From: Branchiostoma floridae
Taxonomy: Eukaryota; Chordata; Leptocardii; Amphioxiformes; Branchiostomatidae
Direction of reading: 5' to 3'
DNA: 64,000 nt
Assembly: GCF_000003815.2 (NCBI RefSeq)
Contig: NC_049981.1
Coordinates: 4,857,021 to 4,921,020 of the forward strand
Numbering within the stretch: the stretch's first letter is position 1; each line of letters starts with the position of its first letter. Shown piece after piece: positions 791-23,400 of the stretch. A model generated the notes under the pieces. The model had not been told where the DNA came from and made no database searches. It was given only the letters and a program-made list of their open reading frames with translations. A program made the translations under genes and the position numbers.

Positions 791-1818
791 GTCAATTATA
801 CGCAAAATCCAAACACTCAGGGCCCCAACGAATATCGAAACAGTCTATATAAAGACACGAAAATATGAAAAAATGGAGCGTTTAATACCAGTCCTACAAG
901 CACAATATGTGAATTGACCAGGAACCATCCCATACTGCTCACACACACCAAGGTTTCATACCTCTTGTTAAACAGTCACACTGAGACCACAAAAACTACA
1001 GCTTGTCGGTCAGTTCATGGATCAAAGCAGTTGTGGGGGTGTCTTGCTCCTTTTTGGCGACGCCTCAGGGGCGAGCCTAATGTTTATAGTGTGCGACCGT
1101 TTGACAGGAATTCTAGGAATTCCGCAGGCATGCGAGGAATTTTTCTACGGGGAATTTTTCTACGGGTATTTTCTACGGGTATTCCCTAGGGAATTTGTTT
1201 TTGTGTGTGACTTTAGTCTGCTTTGGGTATGGCGTATAATAAGATGACGTGACCGATGTTATAAACCAGGATTTCATGTTTTAATACTCGTTTCACCATC
1301 AAGTATACAGCACATTACATTTTTTAACAAAATACCCGATATTATGTATCGTTAGGGTAGAATTGTGGGTCAGTTATATTTTTTGCTTGACCATTCGGCG
1401 TAATGATGTCGTGTATGTATGAGGATTGTTTTGTTTCGTTTGAAGGTTTTTATTTCATATCTTTCTGTTATTTCATTTTGTATGGTTGTGTGACGCTTGA
1501 ATCCCTTTTTTTCTCATTGCTGTGATGTTCATTTGGTTACCAAACCATCGCGACAAAGGGGTGTACTTGTCAGTCGATTCTTCCTGTAACCTGGGGGTTG
1601 TCATGCCGGCGTTCACCTGTGGGGACAGATTGTGAGAAAGGATTGATATGAAGTATTTTTGCAATAGTGATACTAACTTAGCAACTTTTGTATGTCTGGA
1701 TCGGTAAAGTGTTGTTTTCTGTTAGTTACAGGCCGTCGGTAGTGATGTAAGGCATCAAAGTAATTCAGATATAATTTATAGCAAAAGTCATACATATTGA
1801 ATTACAGCGCTTATATTG

Positions 1819-2092
1819 TCATGTCAAGTCAAAGTCCTTCCCGCTCCATGGTGCATAGGGCGGCGCCCATGTTCTTGCAGTAACCCTGGGCCAAACAAAT
1901 GCAATTACTACAGTAGGGGGCCAGGACACTGGCTGTGGTGTGTGTTCAAATTACATACTCTTTCCCGAATGCTGAGTGCTAAGCTGAGAAATTAGCACGA
2001 CCATTTAACACGTCATACTATATTGGCCGGGGATCGAACTTACGACGTACCGAATGCATGGCGAAGACTTTTCCCACTCGTCTCATTGCACC
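1819..2092 (-). repeat. tRNA-derived SINE, left-arm copy
   Basis: Read on the minus strand, it starts with a tRNA-like head (A-box-like GAGACGAGTGGGAA; B box GTTCGATCCCC near 2035) and continues into a body of about 200 bp ending near GACTTGACATG. The same body appears at 46293-46574 and 61640-62026, sharing blocks such as TTTCCCGAATGCTGAGTG and GGTGTGTGTTCAA. That makes it a dispersed family rather than a tRNA gene. The mirror copy lies at 29031-29304. Confidence 0.75.
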
Positions 2093-2099
2093 GGCGATA

Positions 2100-4835
2100 A
2101 CGCTTGTGCAGCCAGACAACAATACTCGTGATGCTAACGTGCTGTTACTTTGACCGATGAGGTCTATTTCTCTTATAACCAAAGGGCACAAAAGTGCATT
2201 ATCATTTACCTTTTGGTGTAGCCCGAGTTTTGAATCATTAAAGAAGTTTCAGAAATAAAATGTACCACCGTGAATAAGAAATAATGACACAAAATATTCT
2301 TTCTCGGCTTGGCTTCGCATGATCGAAGGCACATCACAATATCAATATACATGTCGGCTTAAAAGCCACAAGCGACGGCTATCGGGTCTAAAGTGCAGTA
2401 CACTGTTACGTCGGGTTGCGTAAACCAGTATACAGAATATTTCGTCCATCATACAAGTAAAACGGCTGCATTTGCAAGAGATATCCAACTTCTACGTGTG
2501 GAAGGGTGGTAAAGGTGATTGGAAAAGCATCCTGTATACAACGGCTATATCATCACCAGCCTGTAATAAGACAGAATGAAATAAGTCACATGTACGCTCA
2601 CCGCTATTAAACTGCTTGGAGGACAATGGGTGATCAGATTACCGGTACCGTTTTGGCTACAGTCAGAGTGATAAGACGGCGGGCGATCGGAGGACGGATG
2701 GGAGTATGGCAGTTCCGGCAATCGTCGGTTAATTGACGACTCGTGCTCAGCAGTATTACTATAGAACTGTGGATACGTGCTTGACTGTACTAGTCCACAG
2801 ACGATAAAGGGTGAGTGAAACGCAGAGAAAAAGATGATTGAGAACGGGGACCCCGGTAACAAATCGTATCTTTTACTTTAAGACCACGGGAAACAGATGA
2901 ATATGACCACGAGAAACAGAAGCGTTTGTTGTTCGGCGGCGGCAAGGTGGCGAATGGAATTCCACAGAAGGGCCTCATGGAGTGCTGATATCTTCGGCCG
3001 ATCAAAAACAAAAGGGTTGTGCCTGGTTGTGCCGTAAACAACATGTGGTATGAGTAACAAACTGCCAAGAAGTTTCCACGTTGAAAGATATTCTCTAAAC
3101 AAAATAAAAAAACTCTGGCGAAACACGGTCACAGATGAAGACTAATTTCTACACAACAATACGCTGTAAAAATGCCAAAACTATAATGCCGTTAATATGG
3201 GACTCATATTTTATCTTGCCGAAACGTGATGTTGGCGGACTTTTTGAAGACCAAGGTCTCGGGCGGTTTGGGGTAAGATTTGGGCCCACGAGATTAAGGT
3301 TGGCAGTGTTACTCAACCCAAGCACACAGTCCCAAAATCCACCTGGTACGATTCACATCGTAACGCTCTCGGTTTATTTAGCTCTAGTCACTCTTAACAA
3401 CTTGTGACGTATCTATTATACACATAATACATGCTATCATTAGCAAGGTACTCTCACCGAAATTGAGTCGCTTGTGCATGTTCACTGTCCAGTTGAAGCG
3501 CCGCGTCTAACTCGGCCGACCTTGTCCGCCGAGCCATCTCCGCCTGACTAGATAGTCAGTGATCGATCTTTAGTGGGAAGCAAACTGACGCTATTCTGAG
3601 GGCTGCCATTGGTTGGAAAATGTACTTGTGCAGTTCCTATTTGTCAATGTTTACAGACTGACGTCAGCACGGTGACCAATCCCAAGACGATGTCCAGACG
3701 ACGGCCAGGGACCGCCCGTTTTGTTTGTTTTAACTATCCAAGCGGGGACGATATAGTCACAGCTTTCAAAACGGGGATTGAAATGTAACCAAAAAGGATC
3801 TATTTTACGATGGGTATATTGCAACCTAACAACGCTAAAAGCAATAGCAGCGAATCAGAACATTATAACCCGGAACTTTTTCATGCCTACCTTAAAAATT
3901 AGTACTAAGTTTTAACGGCTACAATGTTTCCTGTTTATTGGCGAAGCGTAAAACAATAGATATATCTTGTACCGTCTTCTCTGAGGTGCGCTTATCGGGT
4001 AGTTTAGTTGATATTTTTGATCATGCATCATATACTGGGCGATGTTAAATTCAGTATCTCCGGTAACAGTCCTGGTTATATTGACCTCTTATTTTCTTTT
4101 TCCAAAATGTGACTAGACATTGCATCTCCGAGGTTTATACTACTCTAATTAGATACAAAAATAAAGGACTTTGCCCCATCATCTTGTATGCAGATACACA
4201 CCAACATGTGTTGCATCAATCACACACGAATCGTAATCCACAATGTATGGCGTACATGAGTTATTACCTCGTAAGCTACCATTTGTTAAGCTGGCTCTAT
4301 CTCACTCTTTAAATACAAGGGAAGAATCACACTTAAATACACAGACGTATGTCACTTGATGACAATGTTAACCACTTTAGAAGAACAAACACTCAAAGCT
4401 ATACCTGAGTCCGATTAAATTGTGTTAATAAGCAATTGTACATACAGACATTTTCTCATAGACTGTCTATAGATAATGGTAAGTTAAGATTCTTTAAGAA
4501 ACTAAAGAAGGGATACTCAATGTAAACTTATTTAACATCACTAGATAATATCGAGGTCAGATCGGCAATATGCAAACTAGCTACCCGTGGGCGAAAGAAC
4601 CTGTAATCATTGTATTGCAAAACCGGTGGAAGACGAGATACATTTTATTTCTAACTGCTTCTCTAATGACCAGGAAAGAAAGGAGTAATATGAAGAGGTT
4701 TGCAAAACACACAAAAACTTCCAAACGCTTACCGACATCCCTGTATGGCACATCCGCTAGCCTGTTACTCACAGGATAGGCATGGGAACCAGTGAACAAC
4801 TAGAGGGGCGAGTCAGAACAGAAATAAACAACATC
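2100..4835. other. Left-arm stretch without a recognisable gene
   Basis: It contains several short open frames (63-105 codons), on both strands and overlapping each other, for example at 2545-2862 and 3135-3407. None matches a family I know or has convincing splice structure. The 90-codon frame at 3135-3407 and its mirror at 27724-27996 differ by one residue, which only reflects overall arm identity. A hidden non-coding or lineage-specific gene cannot be excluded. Confidence 0.5.
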
Positions 4836-4906
4836 CCGACTCCCGGGATTCGAACCCGCGCCGAACCCGGGCAGCCGGATCACAAATCACACGTGCTAAC
4901 CACAAC
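4836..4906 (-). repeat. tRNA-like sequence (SINE head or tRNA pseudogene), left arm
   Basis: On the minus strand there is an A-box-like TGGTTAGCACG and a B box GGTTCGAATCC at the spacing of a tRNA gene. The T arm pairs GCGGG with CCCGG with one mismatch, but I could not fold a clean acceptor and anticodon stem. It is a tRNA-derived relic rather than a working tRNA. Its mirror copy is at 23330-23400. Confidence 0.55.
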
Positions 4907-4909
4907 AAC

Positions 4910-6845
4910 AAAAGCTCAAGAGCTGTTGGCGTGGTCAGTTTGGCAGCGCTAGAACCCACTGTTACAATAGCAATGTTCGTTCTTCCCACCACGCCGTGCT
5001 AAGAAAGAATGACCGCTTGAGGAATAAAATGTGTCCCGCATGTGCCAGTGTCCGGCAGTCCGGACCGCCTGGAAGGCCTGGCTCTAAACAAAAGGCAGTT
5101 CAACAGACCGTTTCTGATTAGCACAACGCTTGTTGCGGGTGTGACGAAAAGCCAGCACCACATGGCACAGATGACACAGACTTGTCATTTCCATGGTGGT
5201 CCGGTGACAATAAATCATGCGGTCTGCTTTTAATACAAGGAATTCCTGCTTTTACAGGAGTTTACATCAACACAGCTTGTCGTTCAAATTCATTCCTTTC
5301 AAAACATTGTTTCTGTCGTAACTATCCAAACGGGGGCGATTCAGACGCAACCAACTATCAAAACGGGAGATTGAGATGTACCTATCAAAAAGGGGGTACT
5401 TTACGATTGCTACATTGCAACCTAAAACGCTAAAAACAACAATAGCGAATCAAAACATTTAAACCCTTTTATGCCTACCTTAAAAACTAGTGCTAAGTTT
5501 TAACGGCTACAATGTTTCCTGTTAATTGACGAAGCGTATTTAAATAATGAATTCTTGGACCGTCTTTCTTGTGGTGTGCTTCAACAGTCGGCCGTATGAT
5601 TTTCGCCCGTACTGATATTATCTAATATTTTAACAATAATAAGCGACACTGTTCCCTTTCAGCTTGTCATTGATCCGGGATGTATCAGTACATATGGGAA
5701 TATGGTGTCGCGATCCATATTTTCTTAGGCATCGGCGAAATGAACTTGCGATGTATAAACGATAAATAACTCGCAACTCGCCCTGATAATCCGTCTCAAA
5801 CTAGGCATCTTATCCACTGTCTAGTGATTAATCGAATAGTTTAGTTGATTTTTGTTTATCATGCATCAAATACTGAGTCATTTCAAATTAAAAACTTCCG
5901 TTAACAGTCCTGGTTTTACTGACCCCCAATTTACTTGTTCCCAAATGTGTCTAAATGGGGATTGCTACTCTGAGGTATATACTGCTCTGATTAGATACAA
6001 AATAAAACACGTTTGTATCCACTCCGCCACATTTATCTTCTATCAAAACACATACCAACATGTCTTGTAACAACCACACACGAATGTATTGACATTTTAA
6101 CAGAGAGAACTAGGGTATCCATGTTACACGCTGCAACTATAGCGGGAAAGAAATGCATTGTGCATAGGTAGAATGATCTAACAAAACCTCATGATTTGAC
6201 CCAAATATGGCAGAAACGATTTAAGGTTCACGATTCACTCTGGCACTCCGTTCTCAACTTGAATGTTTAACGTGAGTCGGTGAGGAAGGGGGTTGGTACA
6301 ATTTGGCAAAGAAAAGGCACGGGACATGACACTACATGAGCACGGTTTGGAGATTTTTAAAGCCGAAACCATGGAGGCAAAAAATCTGGTTGTGGTTCAA
6401 AGATGCCAGAGATCAGGGGAGGATGTTTGGCCAAATCTGCTGCAATTAGCTGTCACAGAAAATGAGTTACGACCAGGGCTGGGGCCAGGGGTAGCCTGAC
6501 TAAAATCAAGCCCCTAGCGGCCGGCCCTACAATTGCCGCCACCCTATGGGGAGGGGGTCTGTCATTAAGCCCAGCCGGCGAGAGAGCTTGTGTAAACACA
6601 GGCTAGGGCCAGGGGGTACGTATGAAATGTCAGAGTGGCCTTGACTGCACTGTAGGTGTACGGAACGAAGAGTAGAACAGATGGCAAAAATTATCGTGGT
6701 GATTCTCAGAATCCGGCGATGTGACAAATTTAGTCACTGTGTCAGATAGATAGTATGTCGACCAAACACCTAGAAAACCACGACAACGGAACTTATGCAT
6801 GTTTCACGAAAATTCAAGACTTCACATCTAAACTTTCACGCTAAC
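4910..6845. other. Left-arm stretch without a recognisable gene
   Basis: Scattered frames shorter than 85 codons occur on both strands. Parts of the stretch resemble the neighbouring 3720-4240 region: the words AACGGCTACAATGTTTCCTG, TAGTTTAGTTGAT and GATTGCTAC or its variants recur in the same order. This suggests an older direct duplication of about 600 bp inside the arm (3720-4240 and 5310-6070). Confidence 0.5.
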
Positions 6846-6878
6846 CAAGGAGCTTTTATCACTGATAAAAGCCCCTTG
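6846..6878. mobile_element. 33-bp mobile hairpin with 7-bp target duplication
   Basis: The insert starts CAAGGAGCTTTTATCA and ends TGATAAAAGCCCCTTG, a 16-bp stem with one mismatch around a single central base. It is flanked on both sides by CGCTAAC (6839-6845 and 6879-6885). The mirror position in the right arm has one uninterrupted copy of that word (21392-21398), which is an empty site. The same terminal ten bases occur in the 32-bp insert at 18308-18339. Confidence 0.85.
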
Positions 6879-7306
6879 CGCTAACAGAGATGGGGTTTTG
6901 TGTGCGTGAAAAGTTGCGCATGAAAATCTGCGGGTGACAACATGCACATTCTCTTATTTCCCGGGGATTTGAAAAGTTTTTGTACTTTTACATTTAAGAT
7001 ATCTAAACAGAACGCTCAAAACCTTTTGACACCATTAGTGTTGATAATTAGCAGGGATTTTAACCCATGTCCTATCCGGTATTAAACTTCCCAGGGTGGT
7101 GTCCCTGCAGACGTGTTACACGTTCGCGTATACAAGAACGGGATCCCGTCTGTATTTCCCAGTTGCCGTTATATCAGAAGAAAACTAATTCACATCCAGT
7201 ATTCTAAATCCACATAGTATGGTGTCCCTAGGGGTAGGGGTGTACTAAGTAACGACTAAATTGACTAAGTTGGAGACGTCCACCATTCAACTGACTGGTC
7301 TCCCTA

Positions 7307-9773
7307 CACTACAAAAAATCTTTTTTCTTATTTTTCTTGTTTTCTTGTTTTTTCTTACGGAGAGAAAAAGTCTCTTGTATAAAGAAAGGTTGAGAAAAGC
7401 AAGAAACCTCCTGTAAAACCTTTGTATGCTAATTCCTACACAAAGATTTTTATTCTTGTTTTTTCTTAACTGAAGAAAATATTTCTAATATAATGATCAC
7501 TGAGCAAGAATGTTCAAGAAATTAAAGTAGAACTTTCTTTTCCAGTCTTTACACAAGATTTGCTTCTTGTTTGTTCAAATGGAAAATATTGCAGAATCTA
7601 TCCTGAAGATTATTATTCTTGCCTTATACCAGTTTTTTCTTTAGGATTTGTTTTTACCAGAATAACATTCTTGAACTTTCTTGTTGTCTCAATGTAGAAT
7701 GTCCGAGAAACGTAATTCTTGGTTTTCATGTTATAACTTAAGAAAATGCAATAGTTTTTTAATCAGTTTCTTGAGCAAATACTGTTCAACAAAGAAAAGA
7801 AAAAAAAGAAAATCAAGAAATTGCAAAACAACTTATAACTAGCATGAAATTCTTAAATGTTCTTGAATGTTTCTTTATCCATAAAGTTTAAGAAAAGACG
7901 TTTCTTGTTTTTCTTGATGATATGTAAGGAGATATTATCATATTTTTCAGAACTCACTTGACTGAATACTAATAAGAAAAACAAGAAATTATGAAACAAG
8001 CTATGACTAGCAGAATATTCTTGAATGTTATTATGTTTCTCATCAAGAAAATTTAAGAAAGATGATTCTCGTTTTTCTTAATAATATTTAATGAAAACAA
8101 TAAAAGTATAATTTTCTCCTTATATTCTTGACAACTACGTTTAAACAATTGGAGCATCAAGATATGAAAAATAATTTTGAGCTAGCATTGATTTTCTTTT
8201 GTTTTCCCAATACGAGAGTTAAGAAATATTTTCTTGCAGTAAGATTCTTCATTTTGCTAAGGATCATGGGAAATTACTCCCATCATCCTTTGCTGCGATT
8301 TTGAACTGGGAGTCACAGTTGCAAGTCACAGTGCTCCAGCTCTGTAGTTTTTTTGCCTCAGATGTCCTTTAGTTCTTACATTAACAGGGAAAAAATATGA
8401 TGTGTTTCGTAAAGATGATTTTCTGCATCATGTGGGACCTTGCATACAACGTGGCTAGCTTTTTTAAAGTTTCAAAATGCTACCGAAGCCAAGGCCAAGC
8501 CGGATGCCCCCCTCCCCCATGCAGGTATGTTAGCCATCTTACTTGGAATACGATTTCCAAAGCTACTATTTCTGTAGATGTTTATCATAAACCAATCAGT
8601 AATTACAGAATATGTAAGTAGAGTGCATGAAATTCTGCAGAATACAAAGAATTGACTATAATATTTGTAAAGAAGGAAATGTATAGAGATGTTGGCCTTT
8701 ACAAGGGGAGGGGGGGCGATATAAGAATTGATGATCATTCATGGTCTTTGTGTGTTGTTCTAGGCTCAGAAACCTGCTGGTACAAGGAGGATGTTCCCAT
8801 CTCAACTTTGGAAAAGCCCATAACAAGAAGAAGTCTTCATTATAACTACAGCAACGGCAACATTGTAGCTCTAATGGTTTCAGATAAGGACAATTACTGT
8901 AAATGCAGAAATGTTCGCGGTGGATTAATGTTCGCGGTTTTTGCGGTGACCACTTCACCGCGAATTTAAAACCACCGCGAAAATTTTTCTATTATGATAT
9001 TAGATTGCAGTCTATGGTGTTACCGCGAACTTAAGTCCACCGCGAAAAGTCCTTTTTTCCGCTACCGCGAAATTAAATCCCCGCGAACTTAAATACATTT
9101 ACAGTAGTTATAGTTGGCTGCACGGTACTGTATCAGGAAAAAATGTCAATAAGCAAGCGTAGTTACAAAATGGTTGATTTTTGCAATCTTTGGTAAGGAA
9201 TTAGTAATCGAGGAAAACACCACAAAACTTGTATGAATCATATTGATGATAATAAATATGATTGCCATCATGTATTGACATAACTGTCAACATTGAGTTG
9301 TTTGTACTCTTTATATAAGAATGTTAATCTAGTGTAAGAAACTGATTCTAGGTTTGTAGTTGCAAGAAATTTAGTCTTGAAGACAGAATGGCATTGCAGG
9401 CACAAAAAAGCTCAATCTTCATGCAAGAAAGCGATTCTTGTACTACATATAAGAAATTCACTCTTGGAGACAGAAAGTAATTCCTCATACAAGAACCTCA
9501 ATCTTCATGCAAGATTAAGAATTCATTCTTGATGTAAGAAATTCATTCTTCAGCATGCATGTATTAGAAACAGATTCTGACCACAAGAAAACTATTCTAG
9601 AAGTTTTGGTCCATTAGCGATAAGAAAAAAATTCTTAGCACAAGAAAAATATGGGTTTCTTGAATTTTCTCAAAACAGGGATTCTTGTATACAGAATGAT
9701 ATTCTTGCTGAAAGATTAGTTTTCTTTGTTCAAGAAAAAACAAGAAAGATAAGAAAATTCATTTTTTGTAGTG
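7307..9773. mobile_element. CACTA-like non-autonomous DNA transposon
   Basis: The termini are a perfect 13-bp inverted repeat (CACTACAAAAAAT and ATTTTTTGTAGTG) with weaker symmetry further in, flanked by a TA duplication (7305-7306 and 9774-9775). The right arm has the empty TA site at 20971-20972, so the limits are exact. The interior is A/T-rich and crowded with short TTCTTG/CAAGAA words in both orientations, especially in the outer kilobase at each end. That resembles the subterminal repeats of CACTA (En/Spm) elements. I find no transposase. A 210-bp foldback element is nested at 8896-9105. The superfamily call rests on the termini and the subterminal repeats. Confidence 0.85.
8896..9105. 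mobile_element. Nested 210-bp foldback (MITE-like) element
   Basis: The termini ACTGTAAATG and CATTTACAGT are inverted. The interior has several copies of the palindromic pair TTCGCGGT / ACCGCGAA, giving a strong multi-stem foldback. It sits inside the CACTA-like element, so it moved in later or was carried along. I could not define a target duplication. Confidence 0.6.
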
Positions 9774-9775
9774 TA

Positions 9776-10715
9776 GGCGTAGGGATGTACCAACCAACGA
9801 ATAAATTGACTAAGTTGGAGACGCCCACCTTTCTCATGCAAATAAAAGCAATTAAAGAATTAACAAAAATGGAAACAGTAAATCAACCTATGTTACTGAA
9901 CATCTTTATTCATAACATAAACAAAGTAAATTCTAACGGTCATGAAAGAAAGTCAGAAAACGAACAAGACAATAATAAAAAGATTCTTGTAACAAGAAAA
10001 TGTACAAACAGCGCTACATCAAAGACATGAAAAATATAACCTCCTTGGTTACATCAAGCTAGGGAACAAGTTCCAAAATAGTAAAGAAAAACTTTAAAAA
10101 GTAGAGATGCTACATAAAATCATGAGCGTTAAATTGATAAAAACGAGGCAAACGTGAGGCATACAATCAATACTTCCATAAACGAGAAACATACTAAAAT
10201 TGCAGAAGATAATGCATGATGTGGTCTACCAGGAAGGGGTCGAACTGGGAACAGGACAGCTCGTCAGAACGGTTGCACCAGCTGGGTGAATGAAATAGGG
10301 GAGGGGGCAGCGACATTGGCCGGTCTGTCTGGCAGGAACTGGTCAGTATCAAAACTACAGAACAGTTCGGCAGAGATGCCAATAGGCTGCAGCAAAACGT
10401 CCGCCAGCTCAAGCTGGAACTCAGACGTGTCGGGCTGTGTACGGAACTCGTCCTAACATACTGTGAAAACGGCTGAACATACTCGAGAAATTGGCCTTCC
10501 AGACATGCCACGTCCTACCAAGGAGGTTGAAAGAGGGGAAGGAGTCGGCTCATAATTTGTCCCTTTTGAACCATCTTCGACTCACTTTTGAAAAAAAAAA
10601 AACATTAACATTAAGGTGCAAATTGGTCTTGATTTACATACACCCAACCGACTATCGGCATTGTTTTTATTGTTCACTCTTATTGACAAGCAATTGCAAG
10701 TAAGTAACGGTCTCC
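9776..10715. other. Left-arm stretch without a recognisable gene
   Basis: Just inside is the second copy of a direct repeat of about 60 bp (GACTAAGTTGGAGACG and its neighbours; first copy near 7230-7285) into whose junction the CACTA-like element inserted. Frames at 9785-10030 and 10194-10511 mirror frames in the right arm and show no domain I know. Confidence 0.5.
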
Positions 10716-10911
10716 GCACTGGTGTTCCAGTGCTGAATCAATGGGTCGAATCGGCCTCAGCACTGGTTTTCCAGTGCTGAACAATCGTCAGCGCTGGTTT
10801 TCCAGTGCTGAACGGCCTTGTTCCAGTGCTCATGCTCCCTCAGCACTGGAATTCCAGTGCTGAACCCAATGCGAGCACTGGATTTCCAGTGCTTAACTTT
10901 TCCGGTGCTGG
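10716..10911. repeat. Array of CAGCACTGG palindromes, left arm
   Basis: Near-palindromic units of 22-25 bp built as CAGCACTGG, a 3-5 base centre, CCAGTGCTG occur at 10716-10737, 10757-10781, 10788-10812, 10840-10864 and 10873-10896. Half units occur near 10822 and 10898-10911. Spacers are 6-27 bp and unrelated. Each unit can form its own hairpin. The mirror array is at 19776-19971. Confidence 0.9.
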
Positions 10912-12132
10912 ACTTCTAATAGGGCCGGCCTCGGTCCCTGCCGCTGCCATGAGGTCATGACTAGCTCATTATGCGGCTTTTATGGGGAGTCAAACATGGC
11001 TTACAAAGGACTGCCGCCGGCACGCCGGAACAATAGGACACAGCAGGGTTTAACATCGCAAAACAAAGGCCGCGGCAAGGTGCTAATTTTGGGCCGACTC
11101 CTTTCATTTGAGGTCAGGTTGGGAACTGGGATCAAACTGACATACACCCAAAAAACAATGGCATTGTGGTGCAAAAAAGTGTTGTAAAACCTGACATGAA
11201 TTTCACACAACCCTCATGAGCAAAAGGTGTGAGGCGCCATCACCAGGGTCATGAATGACAAATAGGAGANNNNNNNNNNNNNNNNNNNNNNNNNNNNNNN
11301 NNNNNNNNNNNNNNNNNNNNNNNNNNNNNNNNNNNNNNNNNNNNNNNNNNNNNNNNNNNNNNNNNNNNNNNNNNNNNNNNNNNNNNNNNNNNNNNNNNNN
11401 NNNNNNNNNNNNNNNNNNNNNNNNNNNNNNNNNNNNNNNNNNNNNNNNNNNNNNNNNNNNNNNNTGATCTAACTACTAGTATACCTGGGCGGCTACAGTG
11501 AGAACTTCCTTTGGTATGCAATCGCTCGACACATCACATATCGCTATCAAAGGAAAAGGCCGGTGTCATAACGTTGAGAGATCTTTTGTCGGCCTAACAG
11601 CAGAAGCCATTTGTTTTGCATATAGATTAATCGCCTTCGAGAGAACTGTTATACGACATGGTGTGAATGAATACCTCCCGCGAGGCATTCTACCACCCTC
11701 TTGTAAGGCCACATTTGTAAGGTTTTATCCTTGATTGTATAAATAGGTAACGGGGGAATTTTGATATCGCAGCGTTGACCAAACACCCAACGAAAGCAGT
11801 AATGATTACAGACTTCAACCCCCGTACACGCCCGACAACACGTAGAAACTAAGTTTTCTATGCTGATCATGAGTCTCCGTAAGGTGAAGATCTTATTATG
11901 CCTCCAGGTGTGGTTGTACCTATTATTTTAGACGTCATTTTCATGTCTAACAAATGAGTGCTCACATTCATCACAGAAAGTTGAGAATGAACAAACAAGG
12001 CATAGCCACAAGTGGGAAGTACCAGAACATATCACGAGACAGATACATGATACAAACGTCCGGTGAGAGACAATAGAGGCACGCTTGCGAATGTGGTGAA
12101 ATTTCACCAAATTGCACTACTAGTATTTTGGT

Positions 12133-12696
12133 TTATCGTCTGCTGTCATTGTATATGACCCCGGCGGTGGAAAGACTCTCCTGTCCCGAAGTTAGCCTGG
12201 CCAATCCACGGTAGACTGGATTCCAGGTTATTTTTGTACCCGCTCGATCTTCATGGATTGCAGCGCCGTGATCTTTACTGTTACTTTGCTGCACCTTAAG
12301 GTGTTTGATACAAACTTCCCCAAGTGCACAGTAAACATGAACACACTCATCATGCGTTGTCGACTTACAGTATCTTTGGTTTGGAATGTGGTAGTCACCC
12401 TTTGAGTCGGTGTGACAAATGGGCCTGTCATGCTCACGACTCTCTACACATACACGACTTATTAGCCCCATGCAGGACTGAGTCCGGCATGTTATGACAA
12501 ATTTTCCCCTTTTAACGTTTATTTCTATGTACGTTGTAGAACCATTCGGTGCAAGCCGGGCTAAGAAAGCTACGAGAGGTGTGCCTCGATCACAACATTC
12601 ATGTATGATCGACTTAAAGATGAGTCGCGCCCTGGACCGCCTGATCAAGGCAGGCACGCAGGCGAAACCCAACAAAAAACATACTGTATTGTCCAA
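12133..12696 (-). CDS. Doubtful 187-codon ORF in the left arm
   Basis: This is an open frame of unknown family. It includes a segment containing HVYCALGEVCIKH that is echoed in an overlapping frame by HVYCTIPWTFCIKH, because the DNA at about 12285-12360 and 12722-12800 is a diverged direct repeat. In the right arm the same frame is stopped after 126 codons by the 32-bp hairpin. No splice sites, domain or signal peptide stand out. I treat it as probably non-coding. Confidence 0.15.
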   Translation of the reverse strand: MDNTVCFLLGFACVPALIRRSRARLIFKSIIHECCDRGTPLVAFLARLAPNGSTTYIEINVKRGKFVITCRTQSCMGLISRVCVESREHDRPICHTDSKGDYHIPNQRYCKSTTHDECVHVYCALGEVCIKHLKVQQSNSKDHGAAIHEDRAGTKITWNPVYRGLARLTSGQESLSTAGVIYNDSRR

Positions 12697-14221
12697 ACAT
12701 TACGTAGTATAGCTTAAAGATACCGTGTTGCACCTTAGGGTGTTTGATACAAAATGTCCAAGGTATAGTACAGTAAACATGAATACACTCTTCATGTCGT
12801 GTAGACTCAAACATCAAGATGTTCTTGAGATACATAGCAGGACTGGTCTAACCATTTTAAAGCTAAGGGTACAAACCGACGTACGTGCAACTGCGAGTGC
12901 GTGGTGTCTACGTGCCACAACTGGTGCTGGTAAACGGGCTGCTAACTTTAGCTCGGTCTTGCAGATGGGGCATTGTGGACGGTTATAATTGTTTAACTTA
13001 ATTCAAGGTGAAATATGGTCAATGAGATCAGCTGTGTTGTATTTTATAAGGTCAAAGGTCACATAACAGCGTTTAACGGTTCATTTCTTATGGAATCCTA
13101 TACTGGTCTTCCCATAACTGTTGTTAGGCATAATTTGGAAAGATGTAAATGTTTTGAAGAAATATTAGACAAGTAAGAGAGGACGTCCTAGTCACAACGA
13201 GGTTTGATTAGAGGATGTAGTGCCCCACCGTTATACACATGGTTTAGCGTTTCTGTGTTTGTTTAGATCAGAATAAAATATGCGTTACTGATAAGTGATA
13301 ACCAAAGGCATCCATGAGGGAGGGCCTCGAGGAAATAAGTACCACATAATCGCCCCCCCCCCTTCACGGAGATGTAAACAAACCGCCACTGATCACTAGA
13401 ACAGAACCACTCACACTCACAGAACAGAGCAGAACCATCGCGACGATAATCACGCTTACCCAAAAGGATGACATGTCTCTTCCTCCTCCTGACATAACCT
13501 TAAACTAAGATGCCCCATCTCATGTTCTCCCTGGAGCGCCCAGCTTCCGATAAGGGCCCGGCCACCCACGTCACCAAGCGGCAAGCGGGTAGGTGGCACC
13601 CCGTGGCCGGCATGGGCCCGACGAACACGTGTCCCGGCATAGGAAGTAAACCCTTCAGTTTGACGTAAACCCGACCTCACTATCCTTCTGGGCCCCCAAA
13701 ACGTTCATCGCTAGGTCGCTGCACGAAAACGTGGACGTATGGAAAAAAAAGCTAGAAAAATTCTTGGGACAAGGGCCCGGAAGTCCTTTTTTGGATAAAG
13801 AATAAAGTTCGGGATAAGAAATCCTTTAGAGGGCAGACGTAAACAGGACTCTCGTCTAGATCACAAACCACCAGGGCACATATCGAACAGGTCGTCATGT
13901 ACACTGAGTAGCACGGAACAAAACTAAGTCGGCATGAAGAGTGGCTTCTGTATCATGATCATGCCCTACTTCCACGGGGAGTATTTCAAAATAGGAAAAT
14001 CCCGACGAAGGAGTGTCCGTTTGCGTTTTAATCACAGTTAGCACGTTTCAAGATCCATACCCTGGGAGCGAGACAGGACCGGGTAGCTAGCGAGTTTAGT
14101 TCGGGGAACCAAGCCAGTCAGCCCGCCGATCTCACATTAGCGCTCCGGGGGAGTTTAACCCGAAGGAGTTATCGCTACCCTTTTGGGGGAAAGGGCAGGT
14201 GGACCTTACAAAGTTCCAGCC

Positions 14222-14596
14222 TTAAAGTTCTGCTGTTATTTTGAAAAATAGCTCATTACACCCTTGAGCCATATCTAGTCCCTGATTCGCTACTACAATA
14301 GCCTGCTGACCAACTGTGGTGTGTTGTAGCTGGCTACCTGGGGTGGTTATCAATCCTAGGTTCTCCTCTCTCTGACCAAGGGCATTGGAGAGCCATTCTA
14401 CAGTCATCCTGCCAGACCCCAGCACGATAGATATTGAGATTGGGCTACGGTGTGGTAACCAGGCTCGATCCCGGCTGGCTCCCAGGGAAAAAGATCCACG
14501 AAACGCACATAACTTTGACCCGTATTTCAACTGAACCGAGAAGTTTTTACCCGCAAGTACCAACCTACCGTAACTTTCTATCTCCCTGTATGCCAC
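14222..14596 (-). CDS. Doubtful 124-codon ORF, left arm
   Basis: No family is recognised. The mirror frame (16023-16397) stays open but differs at five bases, four of which change the residue. That pattern gives no sign of protein-level constraint. It is listed only because it is one of the longer gap-free frames in the arms. Confidence 0.12.
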   Translation of the reverse strand: MAYREIESYGRLVLAGKNFSVQLKYGSKLCAFRGSFSLGASRDRAWLPHRSPISISIVLGSGRMTVEWLSNALGQREENLGLITTPGSQLQHTTVGQQAIVVANQGLDMAQGCNELFFKITAEL

Positions 14597-15036
14597 AGAA
14601 GGTCGTTTAGCTCTTGATCTTCGAGCAGATGTTATAGAATGGCTTATTCATATACCTACATCAACATTGCAGCATTGGCCAGATGCCTTGATTCCTTGGA
14701 ACCGCTGCCATAAACACTTATCTGGCCAGGCGCAGATTATTGCAAAATATCAATGTAACATGTAGCATGTTTGACATAATCATATTAATTTTAGTTTAAT
14801 TGTATTGATATTTCTTCATGATAATACTTAACTTGTGTATCAACAACATCATACTACACAGTACATTAAGCCAACGTATCGCGACACTACGACACTAGCA
14901 CATACAGCCCGGAACATCATCATGACTTACCAAGCATACAATTCCTCAATCATCTCTATCAACATACAATACAATACGTTACAAAAAAGTCAAACAATAT
15001 TACCGTCGCCATGGCAATGCTTTTTCATTGCCACAC

Positions 15037-15582
15037 NNNNNNNNNNNNNNNNNNNNNNNNNNNNNNNNNNNNNNNNNNNNNNNNNNNNNNNNNNNNNNNN
15101 NNNNNNNNNNNNNNNNNNNNNNNNNNNNNNNNNNNNNNNNNNNNNNNNNNNNNNNNNNNNNNNNNNNNNNNNNNNNNNNNNNNNNNNNNNNNNNNNNNNN
15201 NNNNNNNNNNNNNNNNNNNNNNNNNNNNNNNNNNNNNNNNNNNNNNNNNNNNNNNNNNNNNNNNNNNNNNNNNNNNNNNNNNNNNNNNNNNNNNNNNNNN
15301 NNNNNNNNNNNNNNNNNNNNNNNNNNNNNNNNNNNNNNNNNNNNNNNNNNNNNNNNNNNNNNNNNNNNNNNNNNNNNNNNNNNNNNNNNNNNNNNNNNNN
15401 NNNNNNNNNNNNNNNNNNNNNNNNNNNNNNNNNNNNNNNNNNNNNNNNNNNNNNNNNNNNNNNNNNNNNNNNNNNNNNNNNNNNNNNNNNNNNNNNNNNN
15501 NNNNNNNNNNNNNNNNNNNNNNNNNNNNNNNNNNNNNNNNNNNNNNNNNNNNNNNNNNNNNNNNNNNNNNNNNNNNNNNNNN
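15037..15582. other. Assembly gap at the palindrome centre
   Basis: The gap is 546 N. Both edges carry the same hairpin-forming word: GCCATGGCAATG, a short A/T spacer, then CATTGCCACAC on the left, mirrored on the right. The two arms are therefore still paired at the gap edge, and the true spacer or symmetry point is unseen. The long open frames drawn across this gap consist mainly of N and are not genes. Confidence 0.97.
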
Positions 15583-16022
15583 GTGTGGCAATGAAAAAGC
15601 ATTGCCATGGCGACGGTAATATTGTTTGACTTTTTTGTAACGTATTGTATTGTATGTTGATAGAGATGATTGAGGAATTGTATGCTTGGTAAGTCATGAT
15701 GATGTTCCGGGCTGTATGTGCTAGTGTCGTAGTGTCGCGATACGTTGGCTTAATGTACTGTGTAGTATGATGTTTTTGATACACAAGTTAAGTATTATCA
15801 TGAAGAAATATCAATACAATTAAACTAAAATTAATATGATTATGTCAAACATGCTACATGTTACATTGATATTTTGCAATAATCTGCGCCTGGCCAGATA
15901 AGTGTTTATGGCAGCGGTTCCAAGGAATCAAGGCATCTGGCCAATGCTGCAATGTTGATGTAGGTATATGAATAAGCCATTCTATAACATCTGCTCGAAG
16001 ATCAAGAGCTAAACGACCTTCT

Positions 16023-16397
16023 GTGGCATACAGGGAGATAGAAAGTTACGGTAGGTTGGTACTTGCGGGTAAAAACTTCTCGGTTCAGTTGAAATACGGG
16101 TTAAAGTTATGTGCGTTTCGTGGATCTTTTTCCCTGGGAGACAGACGGGATCGAGCCTGGTTACCACACCGTAGCCCGATCTCAATATCTATCGTGCAGG
16201 GGTCTGGCAGGATGACTGTAGAATGGCTCTCCAATGCCCTTGGTCAGAGAGAGGAGAACCTAGGATTGATAACCACCCCAGGTAGCCAGCTACAACACAC
16301 CACAGTTGGTCAGCAGGCTATTGTAGTAGCGAATCAGGGACTAGATATGGCTCAAGGGTGTAATGAGCTATTTTTCAAAATAACAGCAGAACTTTAA
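16023..16397 (+). CDS. Doubtful 124-codon ORF, right arm
   Basis: This is the mirror partner of 14222-14596. Four of the five differences are replacements (for example serine to leucine and leucine to glutamine). The frame carries no motif I can name. Confidence 0.12.
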   Translation: MAYREIESYGRLVLAGKNFSVQLKYGLKLCAFRGSFSLGDRRDRAWLPHRSPISISIVQGSGRMTVEWLSNALGQREENLGLITTPGSQLQHTTVGQQAIVVANQGLDMAQGCNELFFKITAEL

Positions 16398-16742
16398 GGC
16401 TGGAACTTTGTAAGGTCCACCTGCCCTTTCCCCCAAAAGGGTAGCGATAACTCCTTCGGGTTAAACTCCCCCGGAGCGCTAATGTGAGATCGGCGGGCTG
16501 ACTGGCTTGGTTCCCCGAACTAAACTCGCTAGCTACCCGGTCCTGTCTGGCTCCCAGGGTATGGATCTTGAAACGTCCTAACTGTGATTAAAACGCAAAC
16601 GGACACTCCTTCGTCGGGATTTTCCTATTTTGAAATACTCCCCGTGGAAGTAGGGCATGATCATGATACAGAAGCCACTCTTCATGCCGACTTAGTTTTG
16701 TTCCGTGCTACTCAGTGTACATGACGACCTGTTCGATATGTG

Positions 16743-16798
16743 CCCTGGTGGTTTGTGATCTAGACGAGAGCCCTGGTGGTTTGTGATCTAGACGAGAG
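16743..16798. repeat. 28-bp tandem duplication private to the right arm
   Basis: Two identical adjacent 28-base units begin CCCTGGTGGTTTG and end CTAGACGAGAG. The left arm has one unit at the mirror position near 13850. This accounts for the offset change from 30619 to 30647. Confidence 0.92.
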
Positions 16799-17950
16799 TC
16801 CTGTTTACGTCTGCCCTCTAAAGGATTTCTTATCCCGAACTTTATTCTTTATCCAAAAAAGGACTTCCGGGCCCTTGTCCCAAGAATTTTTCTAGCTTTT
16901 TTTTCCATACGTCCACGTTTTCGTGCAGCGACCTAGCGATGAACGTTTTGGGGGCCCAGAAGGATAGTGAGGTCGGGTTTACGTCAAACTGAAGGGTTTA
17001 CTTCCTATGCCGGGACACGTGTTCGTCGGGCCCATGCCGGCCACGGGGTGCCACCTCCCCGCTTGCCGCTTGGTGACGTGGGTGGCCGGGCCCTTATCGG
17101 AAGCTGGGCGCTCCAGGGAGAACATGAGATGGGGCATCTTAGTTTAAGGTTATGTCAGGAGGAGGAAGAGACATGTCATCCTTTTGGGTAAGCGTGATTA
17201 TCGTCGCGATGGTTCTGCTCTGTTCTGTGAGTGTGAGTGGTTCTGTTCTAGTGATCAGTGGCGGTTTGTTTACATCTCCGTGAAGGGGGGGGGGGCGATT
17301 ATGTGGTACTTATTTCCTCGAGGCCCTCCCTCATGGATGCCTTTGGTTATCACTTATCAGTAACGCATATTTTATTCTGATCTAAACAAACACAGAAACG
17401 CTAAACCATGTGTATAACGGTGGGGCACTACATCCTCTAATCAAACCTCGTTGTGACTAGGACGTCCTCTCTTACTTGTCTAATATTTCTTCAAAACATT
17501 TACATCTTTCCAAATTATGCCTAACAACAGTTATGGGAAGACCAGTATAGGATTCCATAAGAAATGAACCGTTAAACGCTGTTATGTGACCTTTGACCTT
17601 ATAAAATACAACACGGCTGATCTCATTGACCATATTTCACCTTGAATTAAGTTAAAAATTATAACCGTCCACAATGCCCCATCTGCAAGACCGAGCTGAA
17701 GTTAGCAGCCCGTTTACCAGCACCAGTTGTGGCACGTAGACACCACGCACTCGCAGTTGCACGTACGTCGGTTTGTACCCTTAGCTTTAAAATGGTTAGA
17801 CCAGTCCTGCTATGTATCTCAAGAACATCTTGATGTTTGAGTCTACACGATATGAAGAGTGTATTCATGTTTACTGTACTATACCTTGGACATTTTGTAT
17901 CAAACACCCTAAGGTGCAACACGGTATCTTTAAGCTATACTACGTAATGT

Positions 17951-18331
17951 TTGGACAATACAGTATGTTTTTTGTTGGGTTTCGCCTGCGTGCCTGTCTT
18001 GATCAGGCGGTCCAGGGCGCGATTCATCTTTAAGTCGATCATACATGAATGTTGTGATCGAGGCACACCTCTCGTAGCTTTCTTAGCCCGGCTTGCACCG
18101 AATGGTTCTACAACTTACATAGAAATAAACGTTAAAAGGGGAAAATTTGTCATAACATGCCGGACTCAGTCCTGCATGGGGCTAATAAGTCGTGTATGTG
18201 TAGAGAGTCGTGAGCATGACAGGCCTATTTGTCACACCGACTCAAAGGGTGACTACCACATTCCAAACCAAAGATACTGTAAGTCGACAACGCATGATGA
18301 GTGTGTTCAAGGAGCTTATATTGAGATATAA
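17951..18331 (+). pseudogene. Right-arm counterpart of the doubtful ORF, truncated by a hairpin insertion
   Basis: It matches the left-arm frame at 12133-12696 up to the insertion at 18308, where the hairpin adds 39 bp including the target duplication. The frame then reads into the hairpin and stops at 18331. If the left ORF were a gene, this would be a disrupted copy. More likely neither is coding. Confidence 0.2.
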
Positions 18332-18339
18332 GCTCCTTG
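18308..18339. mobile_element. 32-bp mobile hairpin with 7-bp target duplication
   Basis: A perfect 14-bp stem (CAAGGAGCTTATAT and its complement) closes a four-base TGAG loop. It is flanked by GTGTGTT on both sides (18301-18307 and 18340-18346). The left arm has the unoccupied site at 12340-12346. It shares CAAGGAGCTT termini with the hairpin at 6846-6878, so the two are copies of one family. Its insertion cuts a 187-codon open frame that is intact in the left arm. Confidence 0.88.
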
Positions 18340-19775
18340 GTGTGTTCATGTTTACTGTGCACTTGGGGAAGTTTGTATCAAACACCTTAAGGTGCAGCAA
18401 AGTAACAGTAAAGATCACGGCGCTGCAATCCATGAAGATCGAGCGGGTACAAAAATAACCTGGAATCCAGTCTACCGTGGATTGGCCAGGCTAACTTCGG
18501 GACAGGAGAGTCTTTCCACCGCCGGGGTCATATACAATGACAGCAGACGAAAAACCAAAATACTAGTAGTGCAATTTGGTGAAATTTCACCACATTCGCA
18601 AGCGTGCCTCTATTGTCTCTCACCGGACGTTTGTATCATGTATCTGTCTCGTGATATGTTCTGGTACTTCCCACTTGTGGCTATGCCTTGTTTGTTCATT
18701 CTCAACTTTCTGTGATGAATGTGAGCACTCATTTGTTAGACATGAAAATGACGTCTAAAATAATAGGTACAACCACACCTGGAGGCATAATAAGATCTTC
18801 ACCTTACGGAGACTCATGATCAGCATAGAAAACTTAGTTTCTACGTGTTGTCGGGCGTGTACGGGGGTTGAAGTCTGTAATCATTACTGCTTTCGTTGGG
18901 TGTTTGGTCAACGCTGCGATATCAAAATTCCCCCGTTACCTATTTATACAATCAAGGATAAAACCTTACAAATGTGGCCTTACAAGAGGGTGGTAGAATG
19001 CCTCGCGGGAGGTATTCATTCACACCATGTCGTATAACAGTTCTCTCGAAGGCGATTAATCTATATGCAAAACAGATGGCTTCTGCTGTTAGGCCGACAA
19101 AAGATCTCTCAACGTTATGACACCGGCCTTTTCCTTTGATAGCGATATGTGATGTGTCGAGCGATTGCATACCAAAGGAAGTTCTCACTGTAGCCGCCCA
19201 AGTAATACTAGTAGTTAGATCATGGGAGTGGCCTGACAATGTGGGGACCCCAACAAACTCCAAGGGTGGCGGAGCAGTACCAAATCCACATAGTCAGGTT
19301 ACTCCCAGAATCTAACTGACTTAGAACATGGCCATCTTTCCGAAGCAAAAATACACTTTTTTTAGTCATTTAGAAACATGCAGTTTTCCTAGCTAGCGGA
19401 CAGACAGGCTACATTCTTCTCCTATTTGTCATTCATGACCCTGGTGATGGCGCCTCACACCTTTTGCTCATGAGGGTTGTGTGAAATTCATGTCAGGTTT
19501 TACAACACTTTTTTGCACCACAATGCCATTGTTTTTTGGGTGTATGTCAGTTTGATCCCAGTTCCCAACCTGACCTCAAATGAAAGGAGTCGGCCCAAAA
19601 TTAGCACCTTGCCGCGGCCTTTGTTTTGCGATGTTAAACCCTGCTGTGTCCTATTGTTCCGGCGTGCCGGCGGCAGTCCTTTGTAAGCCATGTTTGACTC
19701 CCCATAAAAGCCGCATAATGAGCCAGTCATGACCTCATGGCAGCGGCAGGGACCGAGGCCGGCCCTATTAGAAGT

Positions 19776-19971
19776 CCAGCACCGGAAAAGTTAAGCACTG
19801 GAAATCCAGTGCTCGCATTGGGTTCAGCACTGGAATTCCAGTGCTGAGGGAGCATGAGCACTGGAACAAGGCCGTTCAGCACTGGAAAACCAGCGCTGAC
19901 GTTTGTTCAGCACTGGAAAACCAGTGCTGAGGCCGATTCGACCCATTGATTCAGCACTGGAACACCAGTGC
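19776..19971. repeat. Array of CAGCACTGG palindromes, right arm
   Basis: This mirrors 10716-10911 with the same order of full and half units. One spacer differs between the arms (a GTTTGTTC context near 19902 against ACAATCGT on the left), while the palindromes themselves are almost unchanged. Confidence 0.9.
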
Positions 19972-22900
19972 GGAGACCGTTACTTNNNNNNNNNNNNNNN
20001 NNNNNNNNNNNNNNNNNNNNNNNNNNNNNNNNNNNNNNNNNNNNNNNNNNNNNNNNNNNNNNNNNNNNNNNNNNNNNNNNNNNNNCAATGCCGATAGTCG
20101 GTTGGGTGTATGTAAATCAAGACCAATTTGCACCTTAATGTTAATGTTTTTTTTTCAAAAGTGAGTCGAAGATGGTTCAAAAGGGACAAATTATGAGCCG
20201 ACTCCTTCCCCTCTTTCAACCTCCTTGGTAGGACGTGGCATGTCTGGAAGGCCAATTTCTCGAGTATGTTCAGCCGTTTTCACAGTATGTTAGGACGAGT
20301 TCCGTACACAGCCCGACACGTCTGAGTTCCAGCTTGAGCTGGCGGACGTTTTGCTGCAGCCTATTGGCATCTCTGCCGAACTGTTCTGTAGTTTTGATAC
20401 TGACCAGTTCCTGCCAGACAGACCGGCCAATGTCGCTGCCCCCTCCCCTATTTCATTCACCCAGCTGGTGCAACCGTTCTGACGAGCTGTCCTGTTCCCA
20501 GTTCGACCTCTTCCTGGTATACCACATCATGCATTATCTTCTGCAATTTTAGTATGTTTCTCGTTTATGGAAGTATTGATTGTATGCCTCACGTTTGCCT
20601 CGTTTTTATTAATTTAACGCGCATGATTTTATGTAGCATCTCTACTTTTTAAAGTTTTTCTTTACTATTTTGGAACTTGTTCCCTAGCTTGATGTAACCA
20701 AGGAGGTTATATTTTTCATGTCTTTGATGTAGCGCTGTTTGTACATTTTCTTGTTACAAGAAACTTTTTATTATTGTCTTGTTCGTTTTCTGACTTTCTT
20801 TCATGACCGTTAGAATTTACTTTGTTTATGTTATGAATAAAGATGTTCAGTAACATAGGTTGATTTACTGTTTCCATTTTTGTTAATTCTTTAATTGCTT
20901 TTATTTGCATGAGAAAGGTGGGCGTCTCCAACTTAGTCAATTTATTCGTTGGTTGGTACATCCCTACGCCTAGGGAGACCAGTCAGTTGAATGGTGGACG
21001 TCTCCAACTTAGTCAATTTATTCGTTACTTAGTACACCCCTACCCCTAGGGACACCATACTATGTGGATTTAGAATACTGGATGTGAATTAGTTTTCTTC
21101 TGATATAACGGCAACTGGGAAATACAGACGGGATCCCGTTCTTGTATACGCGAACGTGTAACACGTCTGCAGGGACACCACCCAGGGAAGTTTAATACCG
21201 GATAGGACATGGGTTAAAATCCCTGCTAATTATCAACACTAATGGTGTCAAAAGGTTTTGAGCGTTCTGTTTAAATATCTTAAATGTAAAAGTACAAAAA
21301 CTTTTCAAATCCCCGGGAAATAAGAGAATGTGCATGTTGTCACCCGCAGATTTTCATGCGCAACTTTTCACGCACACAAAACCCCATCTCTGTTAGCGTA
21401 AAAGTTTAGATGTGAAGTCTTGAATTTTCGTGAAACATGCATAAAAGTTCCGTTGTCGTGGTTTTCTAGGTGTTTGGTCGACATACTATCTATCTGACAC
21501 AGTGACTAAATTTGTCACATCGCCGGATTCTGAGAATCACCACGATAATTTTTGCCATCTGTTCTACTCTTCGTTCCGTACACCTACAGTGCAGTCAAGG
21601 CCACTCTGACATTTCATACGTACCCCCTGGCCCTAGCCTGTGTTTACACAAGCTCTCTCGCCGGCTGGGCTTAATGACCCCCTCCCCATAGGGTGGCGGC
21701 AATTGTAGGGCCGGCCGCTAGGGGCTTGATTTTAGTCAGGCTACCCCTGGCCCCAGCCCTGGTCGTAACTCATTTTCTGTGACAGCTAATTGCAGCAGAT
21801 TTGGCCAAACATCCTCCCCTGATCTCTGGCATCTTTGAACCACAACCAGATTTTTTGCCTCCATGGTTTCGGCTTTAAAAATCTCCAAACCGTGCTCATG
21901 TAGTGTCATGTCCCGTGCCTTTTCTTTGCCAAATTGTACCAACCCCCTTCCCCACCGACTCACGTTAAACATTCAAGTTGAGAACGGAGTGCCAGAGTGA
22001 ATCGTGAACCTTAAATCGTTTCTGCCATGTTTGGGTCAAATCATGAGGTTTTGTTAGATCATTCTACCTATGCACAATGCATTTCTTTCCCGCTATAGTT
22101 GCAGCGTGTAACATGGATACCCTAGTTCTCTCTGTTAAAATGTCAATACATTCGTGTGTGGTTGTTACAAGACATGTTGGTATGTGTTTTGATAGAAGAT
22201 AAATGTGGCGGAGTGGATACAAACGTGTTTTATTTTGTATCTAATCAGAGCAGTATATACCTCAGAGTAGCAATCCCCATTTAGACACATTTGGGAACAA
22301 GTAAATTGGGGGTCAGTAAAACCAGGACTGTTAACGGAAGTTTTTAATTTGAAATGACTCAGTATTTGATGCATGATAAACAAAAATCAACTAAACTATT
22401 CGATTAATCACTAGACAGTGGATAAGATGCCTAGTTTGAGACGGATTATCAGGGCGAGTTGCGAGTTATTTATCGTTTATACATCGCAAGTTCATTTCGC
22501 CGATGCCTTAGAAAATATGGATCGCGACACCATATTCCCATATGTACTGATACATCCCGGATCAATGACAAGCTGAAAGGGAACAGTGTCGCTTATTATT
22601 GTTAAAAGATTAGATAATATCAGTACGGGCGAAAATCATACGGCCGACTGTTGAAGCACACCACAAGAAAGACGGTCCAAGAATTCATTATTTAAATACG
22701 CTTCGTCAATTAACAGGAAACATTGTAGCCGTTAAAACTTAGCACTAGTTTTTAAGGTAGGCATAAAAGGGTTTAAATGTTTTGATTCGCTATTGTTGTT
22801 TTTAGCGTTTTAGGTTGCAATGTAGCAATCGTAAAGTACCCCCTTTTTGATAGGTACATCTCAATCTCCCGTTTTGATAGTTGGTTGCGTCTGAATCGCC

Positions 22901-23329
22901 CCCGTTTGGATAGTTACGACAGAAACAATGTTTTGAAAGGAATGAATTTGAACGACAAGCTGTGTTGATGTAAACTCCTGTAAAAGCAGGAATTCCTTGT
23001 ATTAAAAGCAGACCGCATGATTTATTGTCACCGGACCACCATGGAAATGACAAGTCTGTGTCATCTGTGCCCTGTGGTGCTGGCTTTTCGTCACACCCGC
23101 AACAAGCGTTGTGCTAATCAGAAACGGTCTGTTGAACTGCCTTTTGTTTAGAGCCAGGCCTTCCAGGCGGTCCGGACTGCCGGACACTGGCACATGCGGG
23201 ACACATTTTATTCCTCAAGCGGTCATTCTTTCTTAGCACGGCGTGGTGGGAAGAACGAACATTGCTATTGTAACAGTGGGTTCTAGCGCTGCCAAACTGA
23301 CCACGCCAACAGCTCTTGAGCTTTTGTTG
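19972..23329. other. Right-arm stretch without a recognisable gene
   Basis: This mirrors the left-arm region 4907-10715 but lacks the CACTA-like element and the 33-bp hairpin. The two empty sites are at 20971-20972 and 21392-21398. The direct repeat with GACTAAGTTGGAGACG lies near 20925-21010. No gene was recognised. Confidence 0.55.
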
Positions 23330-23400
23330 TTGTGGTTAGCACGTGTGATTTGTGATCCGGCTGCCCGGGTTCGGCGCGGGTTCGAATCCCGGGAGTCGGG
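23330..23400 (+). repeat. tRNA-like sequence (SINE head or tRNA pseudogene), right arm
   Basis: This mirrors 4836-4906. The A-box-like TGGTTAGCACG starts near 23333 and the B box GGTTCGAATCC near 23380, followed by CGGGAGTCGGG. The anticodon stem does not pair well, so a functional tRNA is unlikely. Confidence 0.55.

Follow-up and report, generated by a model that had tools for sequence, protein, structure and literature searches.

Short palindromic units in the genome of Branchiostoma floridae as probable excision scars of a P-superfamily transposon

Results

Two short inserts in a large inverted duplication

The window, i.e. the whole 64,000-nucleotide stretch of Branchiostoma floridae DNA that was analyzed (NC_049981.1, positions 4,857,021 to 4,921,020), is part of contig C3 of a 513 Mb genome assembled in 431 contigs. 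Comparison of the first 30,000 bases of the window reveals a large inverted duplication with arms of about 14 kb and a center near 15.3 kb. Aligned blocks of more than 500 bp are 97.6-99.6% identical between the arms, a divergence that would also be compatible with an assembly in which two haplotypes were placed head to head. Each arm carries a short insert, and the features of the region are as follows.

1125-15036, + strand: left arm of the large inverted duplication
6839-6845, + strand: left target copy of insert 1, CGCTAAC
6846-6878, + strand: insert 1 (putative footprint 1), 33 bp, CAAGGAGCTTTTATCA (left end, 16 nt) and CTGATAAAAGCCCCTTG (right end, 17 nt, one substitution)
6879-6885, + strand: right target copy of insert 1, CGCTAAC
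12340-12346, - strand: empty site of insert 2 in the opposite arm, reverse complement
15583-30000, - strand: right arm of the large inverted duplication, extending to at least 30000, the end of the examined stretch
18301-18307, + strand: left target copy of insert 2, GTGTGTT
18308-18339, + strand: insert 2 (putative footprint 2), 32 bp, of a subfamily with ends CAAGGAGCTTATATTGA; this 32-mer is found at 10 places in the genome
18340-18346, + strand: right target copy of insert 2, GTGTGTT
21392-21398, - strand: empty site of insert 1 in the opposite arm, reverse complement

The target copies were read directly in the window and the empty sites were located by alignment of the arms. An earlier note on this DNA had placed the two inserts at these positions, each between exact 7-bp duplications and each with its clean empty site in the opposite arm, and in all of this it was correct. 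It also took the inserts to be separate events, which they are, and insert 2 belongs to a different subfamily from insert 1. As to the ends that it gave both inserts in common, insert 1 differs by one base on the right, where it reads AAGCCCCTTG. Insert 1 is simply 16 + 17 nt of the ends of the parent elements described below, with one substitution.

A possible old footprint of a second end type (GGTT, see below) is located at 20692-20733 and, as its mirror, at 10013-10054, where the order is ATGTAAC, CAAGGAGGTTATATTTTTCATGTCTTTG, ATGTAGC. As it is present in both arms it would predate the arm duplication.

A genome-wide family of short units

The exact pattern CAAGGAGCTT-N4..20-AAGCTCCTTG is found at 508 places in the whole genome. 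The number is a count of places, as the palindromic pattern scores once on each strand per place. The same pattern read backwards has no match, and none was obtained in 100 shuffles of the window. The second end type, CAAGGAGGTT-N2..20-AACCTCCTTG, is found at 1,220 places genome-wide (control 0), and duplications were noted at two of these. Both totals contain some overlapping matches. When the ends are allowed to be 22-82 bases apart there are about 58 further matches, many of which are two neighboring units or repeated end fragments. A BLAST-type search with a unit of 88 nt matched that unit itself and nothing else. The view of the earlier note that this is a dispersed family made by a transposase is supported.

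Hairpins of 18-70 bp flanked by exact duplications were also scanned for with no end motif demanded, in the window and in 20 fetched 10-kb loci. For duplication lengths of 4, 5, 6, 7, 8, 9 and 10 the numbers are 25, 15, 5, 22, 1, 1 and 2, respectively. The 22 hairpins at length 7 consist of 18 units that are the central units of the loci, the two window inserts and two others, and all 22 display (C)AAGGA ends.

Two loci have compound arrangements. At C11:8308523-8308583 a 22-bp GGTT-type unit with the duplication TGTTGAT is nested in a CTT-type unit; this one spot seems to have gone through two rounds of insertion and excision. At L010:3396-3482 there is a 34-bp unit with a third end type, CAAGGACGTT, together with a tandem second copy that is two bases shorter. 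These tandem units include their duplications and lie within a larger local repeat.

Target duplications

The flanks were analyzed in 42 palindromic rows. These come from the top 40 of the 508 places in list order (one counted twice) and from the insert at window position 18308. A 7-bp duplication, for which the earlier note had proposed a test, is exact in 33 of the 42, has one mismatch in six and two mismatches in one. That leaves two rows, both of which belong to L044, the locus counted twice; its exact second copy is 7 bases further out. Among 58 hand-listed exact duplications the commonest target bases are G-T-T-T-A-A-C, with T at position 2 in 46, A at position 6 in 43, G first in 33 and C last in 31. 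Two longer units, of 61 and 88 bp, were also read; one has one-mismatch duplications and the other has none.

A census of single ends was made on contig C1. Sites of the 16-mer CAAGGAGCTTTTATCA not already covered amount to 54 loci, from which 15 copies of another repeat were subtracted as well as L061 and L087, which both continue as long elements, leaving 37. The 7-mer that abuts the end is repeated exactly within 60 bases at 17 of the 37 sites, where control 7-mers taken from further out average 0.3, and the count drops from 17 at length 7 to 4 at length 8. The other 20 sites have no exact duplication within 60 bases; several of these show a one-mismatch copy, which chance can also give.

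The other repeat (L056, L057, L066, L070, L077, L094, L096-L098, L101, L102, L104, L106, L107, L109) contains CTTCCAC (CTTCAAC in L107), which is followed by CAAGGAGCTTTTATCAG and then by unrelated sequence. It carries along a putative excision scar (see Discussion) or an element end.

Length of end kept and junctions

The end in the census stops after 16 nt at 18 sites, 17 nt at 14 sites, 18 nt at two sites and 19, 21 and 31 nt at one site each. Thus 32 of the 37 stop at 16 or 17 nt and five keep 18-31 nt; the sites were chosen for 16 nt of one end, shorter remnants are outside the count, and a single base may match by chance. In the 42 palindromic rows the left remnant is at most 18 nt and the right remnant at most 19 nt throughout. 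The units have the make-up of a footprint, with both copies of the target and, from either end of the element, usually no more than about 17 nt; the exceptions in the census are the five sites with 18-31 nt.

Of the 17 census units with an exact duplication, seven have a nearly complete far end, and in 10 the far end is 10 nt or less with one change allowed (L060, L063, L068, L072-L074, L078, L086, L089, L095). L060, L078 and L089 have hardly any second end to move with.

The 42 rows contain 30 different sequences. Ten of the junctions are blunt, 12 have an overlap of 1-2 bases and 20 have extra bases, a class that includes three rows of the other subfamily because these were scored against the wrong parent. 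Some of the inserted bases repeat end sequence, e.g. in L065 and in several of the wider-spaced matches.

Two intact ends with a common interior, as in a MITE or a minimal mobile unit, are not the rule in this set. The exception is the 32-mer of window position 18308, CAAGGAGCTTATATTGAGATATAAGCTCCTTG, which is identical at ten places in the genome; the five copies with flanks read have five different exact 7-bp duplications. Compared with its own parent this 32-mer represents 17-19 + 14 nt, so that either the remnant extends past 17 nt by one base or more, or a G was added. There are also 46-bp palindromes of TTTTATATCAGATGG type, which are longer than 2 x 17 nt and do not readily fit an origin as scars.

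Long elements with the same ends

The earlier note had proposed to look for longer elements that share the ends and make 7-bp duplications; such elements do exist and have lengths of 1,187-1,190, 1,579 and 8,442 bp. The 16-mer CAAGGAGCTTTTATCA has 549 + 559 sites in the genome, and pairs 1.19 kb apart were found among the approximately 100 sites listed, which cover C1. All four elements of 1,187-1,190 bp on C1 have the 16-nt sequence at either end and lie between exact 7-bp duplications (CACACAC, ATAAAAC, GCCTACC and GTATACC). Three of them are 98.2-99.6% alike; the fourth is turned round and is 97.8% identical to L052. An additional copy, 87.6% identical to L052, has ATTACAT on both sides. 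Three places matched a subterminal motif, among them a diverged 1.2-kb parent. In the subfamily of window position 18308, two pairs of ends are 1,579 bp apart, and in the one that was read GTAACAG is present on either side.

The longest element is located on C19, from position 1980 of L110 into L112. It has a length of 8,442 bp, perfect inverted ends of 31 bp and CTCTAAC on both sides, and its first ~560 bp are 81% identical to the 1.19-kb elements. A relative at L111 has GGTT-type ends at 578 and 8535, where the adjoining 7-mers (CCCGATT, AAGTCAT) are unmatched; it is the exception among eight long elements with both ends read, the other seven having an exact 7-bp duplication.

The 1,187-1,190- and 1,579-bp elements have no transposase coding. 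They are real non-autonomous relatives, and probably arose as internal-deletion derivatives by incomplete copying in gap repair.

Genes of the 8,442-bp element

The open reading frames of the 8,442-bp element and of its relative at L111 are as follows.

L110:3339-5639, + strand: transposase frame with a RAG1_imp_bd match
L111:6646-7404, - strand: transposase frame with a RAG1_imp_bd match
L110:8324-9409, - strand: second open frame, 362 codons, convergent with the transposase
L111:938-1990, + strand: second open frame, 351 codons, convergent with the transposase

Analysis of the 8,442-bp element with Pfam shows the N-terminal part of an RNase H domain (PF21787, 8.6e-22), its C-terminal part (PF21789, 3e-8) and the GTP-binding insertion (PF21788), for which one match is over the cut-off (1.9e-5) and one under it (5.2e-4). 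These P-type domains span the largest frame, of 767 codons, and three open pieces downstream in the right order. With a split RNase H domain and a GTP-binding insertion, the element is predicted to encode a P-superfamily transposase.

A search of the genome with the transposase protein gave at least 39 places. The best scored after the element itself is L111, which is 49% identical and has an internal stop. A genome search with PF21787 gave three loci, two of them long; convincing ends were not found in flanks of 1.5 kb around these loci, and stretches of 10 kb showed them. The P transposase helix-turn-helix domain (PF12017) has no match in the genome, nor has it any in the controls. The THAP domain has no match in the 767-codon frame or in the four downstream and five upstream pieces, where a THAP domain divided among small exons could be missed.

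Near the start of the transposase frame there is a match to RAG1_imp_bd (PF12560), with values of 7.1e-8 and 7.2e-10 in two scans. The origin of the N-terminal region of RAG1 is discussed in PMC8355894 in terms of the sea-slug transposon N-RAG-TP.

The second open frame has no match in Pfam. It is 54% identical between the two diverged elements and therefore probably belongs to the element. An AlphaFold2 model of its protein has a mean pLDDT of 36, and a phmmer search against PDB chains gave no match for either this protein or the 767-codon frame.

Discussion

Origin of the short units

The short units are very probably excision scars of a P-superfamily transposon, and for the most part are not mobile units. 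The earlier note had regarded the 32-33 bp units as themselves mobile, a view that does not agree with remnants that mostly end at 16-18 nt, with far ends that are nearly absent in spite of exact duplications, or with centers that are mostly different. Different centers are expected of repair scars that follow excision of a long element. This reading is based on parent elements that share the ends and duplications, on the P-type transposase gene in one of them, on the length limit, on unequal remnants and on the types of junction.

In the proposed process, a long P-superfamily DNA transposon would insert and duplicate 7 bp of target. Its transposase would later excise it, with one strand cut about 17 nt inside each inverted end. 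This would leave behind the two copies of the target along with a pair of single-stranded tails, each about 17 nt long. The stagger is deduced from the usual limit of 16-18 nt, and its length could be 17 or 18 nt. End joining, microhomology-mediated and probably polymerase-theta-like, would then connect the tails; a few bases may be lost in the process, the tails may overlap briefly, or bases may be added. Each short unit of about 18-50 bp would be the scar of a single excision. Since the inverted-end sequence is the same in both tails, joining them with most of each preserved gives a near-perfect hairpin between 7-bp duplications, which therefore looks like a minute transposon.

That the units are true miniature transposons, mobilized by a transposase that reads just the last ~10 bases, is improbable. 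The exact 7-bp duplications would fit such units, as would the 32-mer at ten places with different exact duplications around each of the five copies read, and six further centers recur 2-5 times in the 42 rows. However, exact duplications are also present in ten census units whose far end is short or missing, the rows hold 30 different sequences, and the kept length mostly ends at 16-18 nt. Recurrence also arises when identical P tails are joined in flies, where two junctions were recovered 14 times each, in 14 isolates apiece (PMC2895639). The 32-mer may thus be taken as the product of a join of 18 + 14 nt that recurred between identical tails, as happens in flies. As the exception it keeps the idea of a mobile unit alive for part of the set. 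The possibility that some scars, above all CAAGGAGCTTATATTGAGATATAAGCTCCTTG, became mobile as a two-ended 32-bp transposon is given only a slight chance. A length of 32 bp is far under the size thought to let two transposase subunits pair ends in cis.

The units might instead be internal-deletion derivatives that arose by incomplete gap-repair copying, like defective P elements, and not by joining of tails. A few units do keep more than 18 nt of an end (31 nt in L108, 21 nt in L105), but break points of this kind would scatter over hundreds of bases, and the stop at 16 or 17 nt in 32 of 37 sites makes this origin very improbable. Chance palindromes, tandem slippage or an assembly artefact have next to no probability. 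The window is itself a large inverted duplication whose arms diverge by a few per cent at most and which could be a matter of assembly; against this are the 508 and 1,220 places compared with zero control matches, and the parents with the same ends, which rule out such an origin for the family as a whole. A hAT origin was also considered, as CAAGG and the T/A target positions fit hAT motifs; it was rejected on account of the P-type transposase and the 7-bp duplication.

Comparison with known systems

The scars most resemble the footprints of the Drosophila P element. P transposase is described as cutting one strand 17 nt inside the element (PMC7776569), and because of this cut the P footprints have the same anatomy as the scars. 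In the repair products described in PMC2895639 the two target copies are retained, each element end is present over 17 nt or less, and the junction classes in Table 1 of that paper are microhomology, blunt joins and insertions, all of which are paralleled here. The fly table (PMC2895639) also has many joins at long microhomologies, in which the tails are almost entirely lost; joins of this near-tailless type would escape the palindrome search used here. The fly footprints differ in having an 8-bp target duplication and in being experimental repair products, whereas the scars have 7 bp and are genome-wide fossils.

Galileo, a member of the P superfamily in Drosophila, has a 7-bp duplication with the consensus GTATTAC / GTANTAC (PMC4168063). 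The 7-bp length is common to both, and the GT...AC target resembles the G-T-T-T-A-A-C found here. The parent elements thus have the 7-bp, GT...AC type of target of Galileo and not the 8 bp of P. In Galileo the inverted ends are long and a THAP domain is present (PMC4168063), in contrast to the 8,442-bp element with 31-bp perfect ends and no THAP domain in the pieces scanned; the RAG1_imp_bd match is at the position occupied by THAP in Galileo. The zebrafish P-like element Pdre2 / THAP9 is described as having a P-type transposase, short inverted ends that start with CA, and internally deleted copies (PMC10983969), and the parent element is alike in all three. It differs from the parent element in its 13-bp ends and 8-bp duplication (PMC10983969).

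The short units also differ from ordinary MITEs. MITEs are small and have inverted ends and a target duplication, whereas most of the short units are without a common interior and some have unequal ends.

In the titles and abstract openings of open-licence PMC papers, which leave subscription papers mostly outside the coverage, no such collection of scars was found for this genome and no P-type elements were found for lancelets; repeat databases are also outside this coverage and the element may be already named.

Significance

Tiny palindromes with perfect target duplications may pass for mobile elements although they are products of repair. The scars also preserve the outcome of many double-strand-break repairs in the germline for which the starting ends were almost the same. 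This natural record comprises 508 places, to which 1,220 are added if the GGTT places are also scars, and the use of repair pathways in a non-model animal could be read from it. With the parent element the P superfamily gains a transposon that makes 7-bp duplications, shows a RAG1-like match in its N-terminal part and carries a second gene in convergent orientation.
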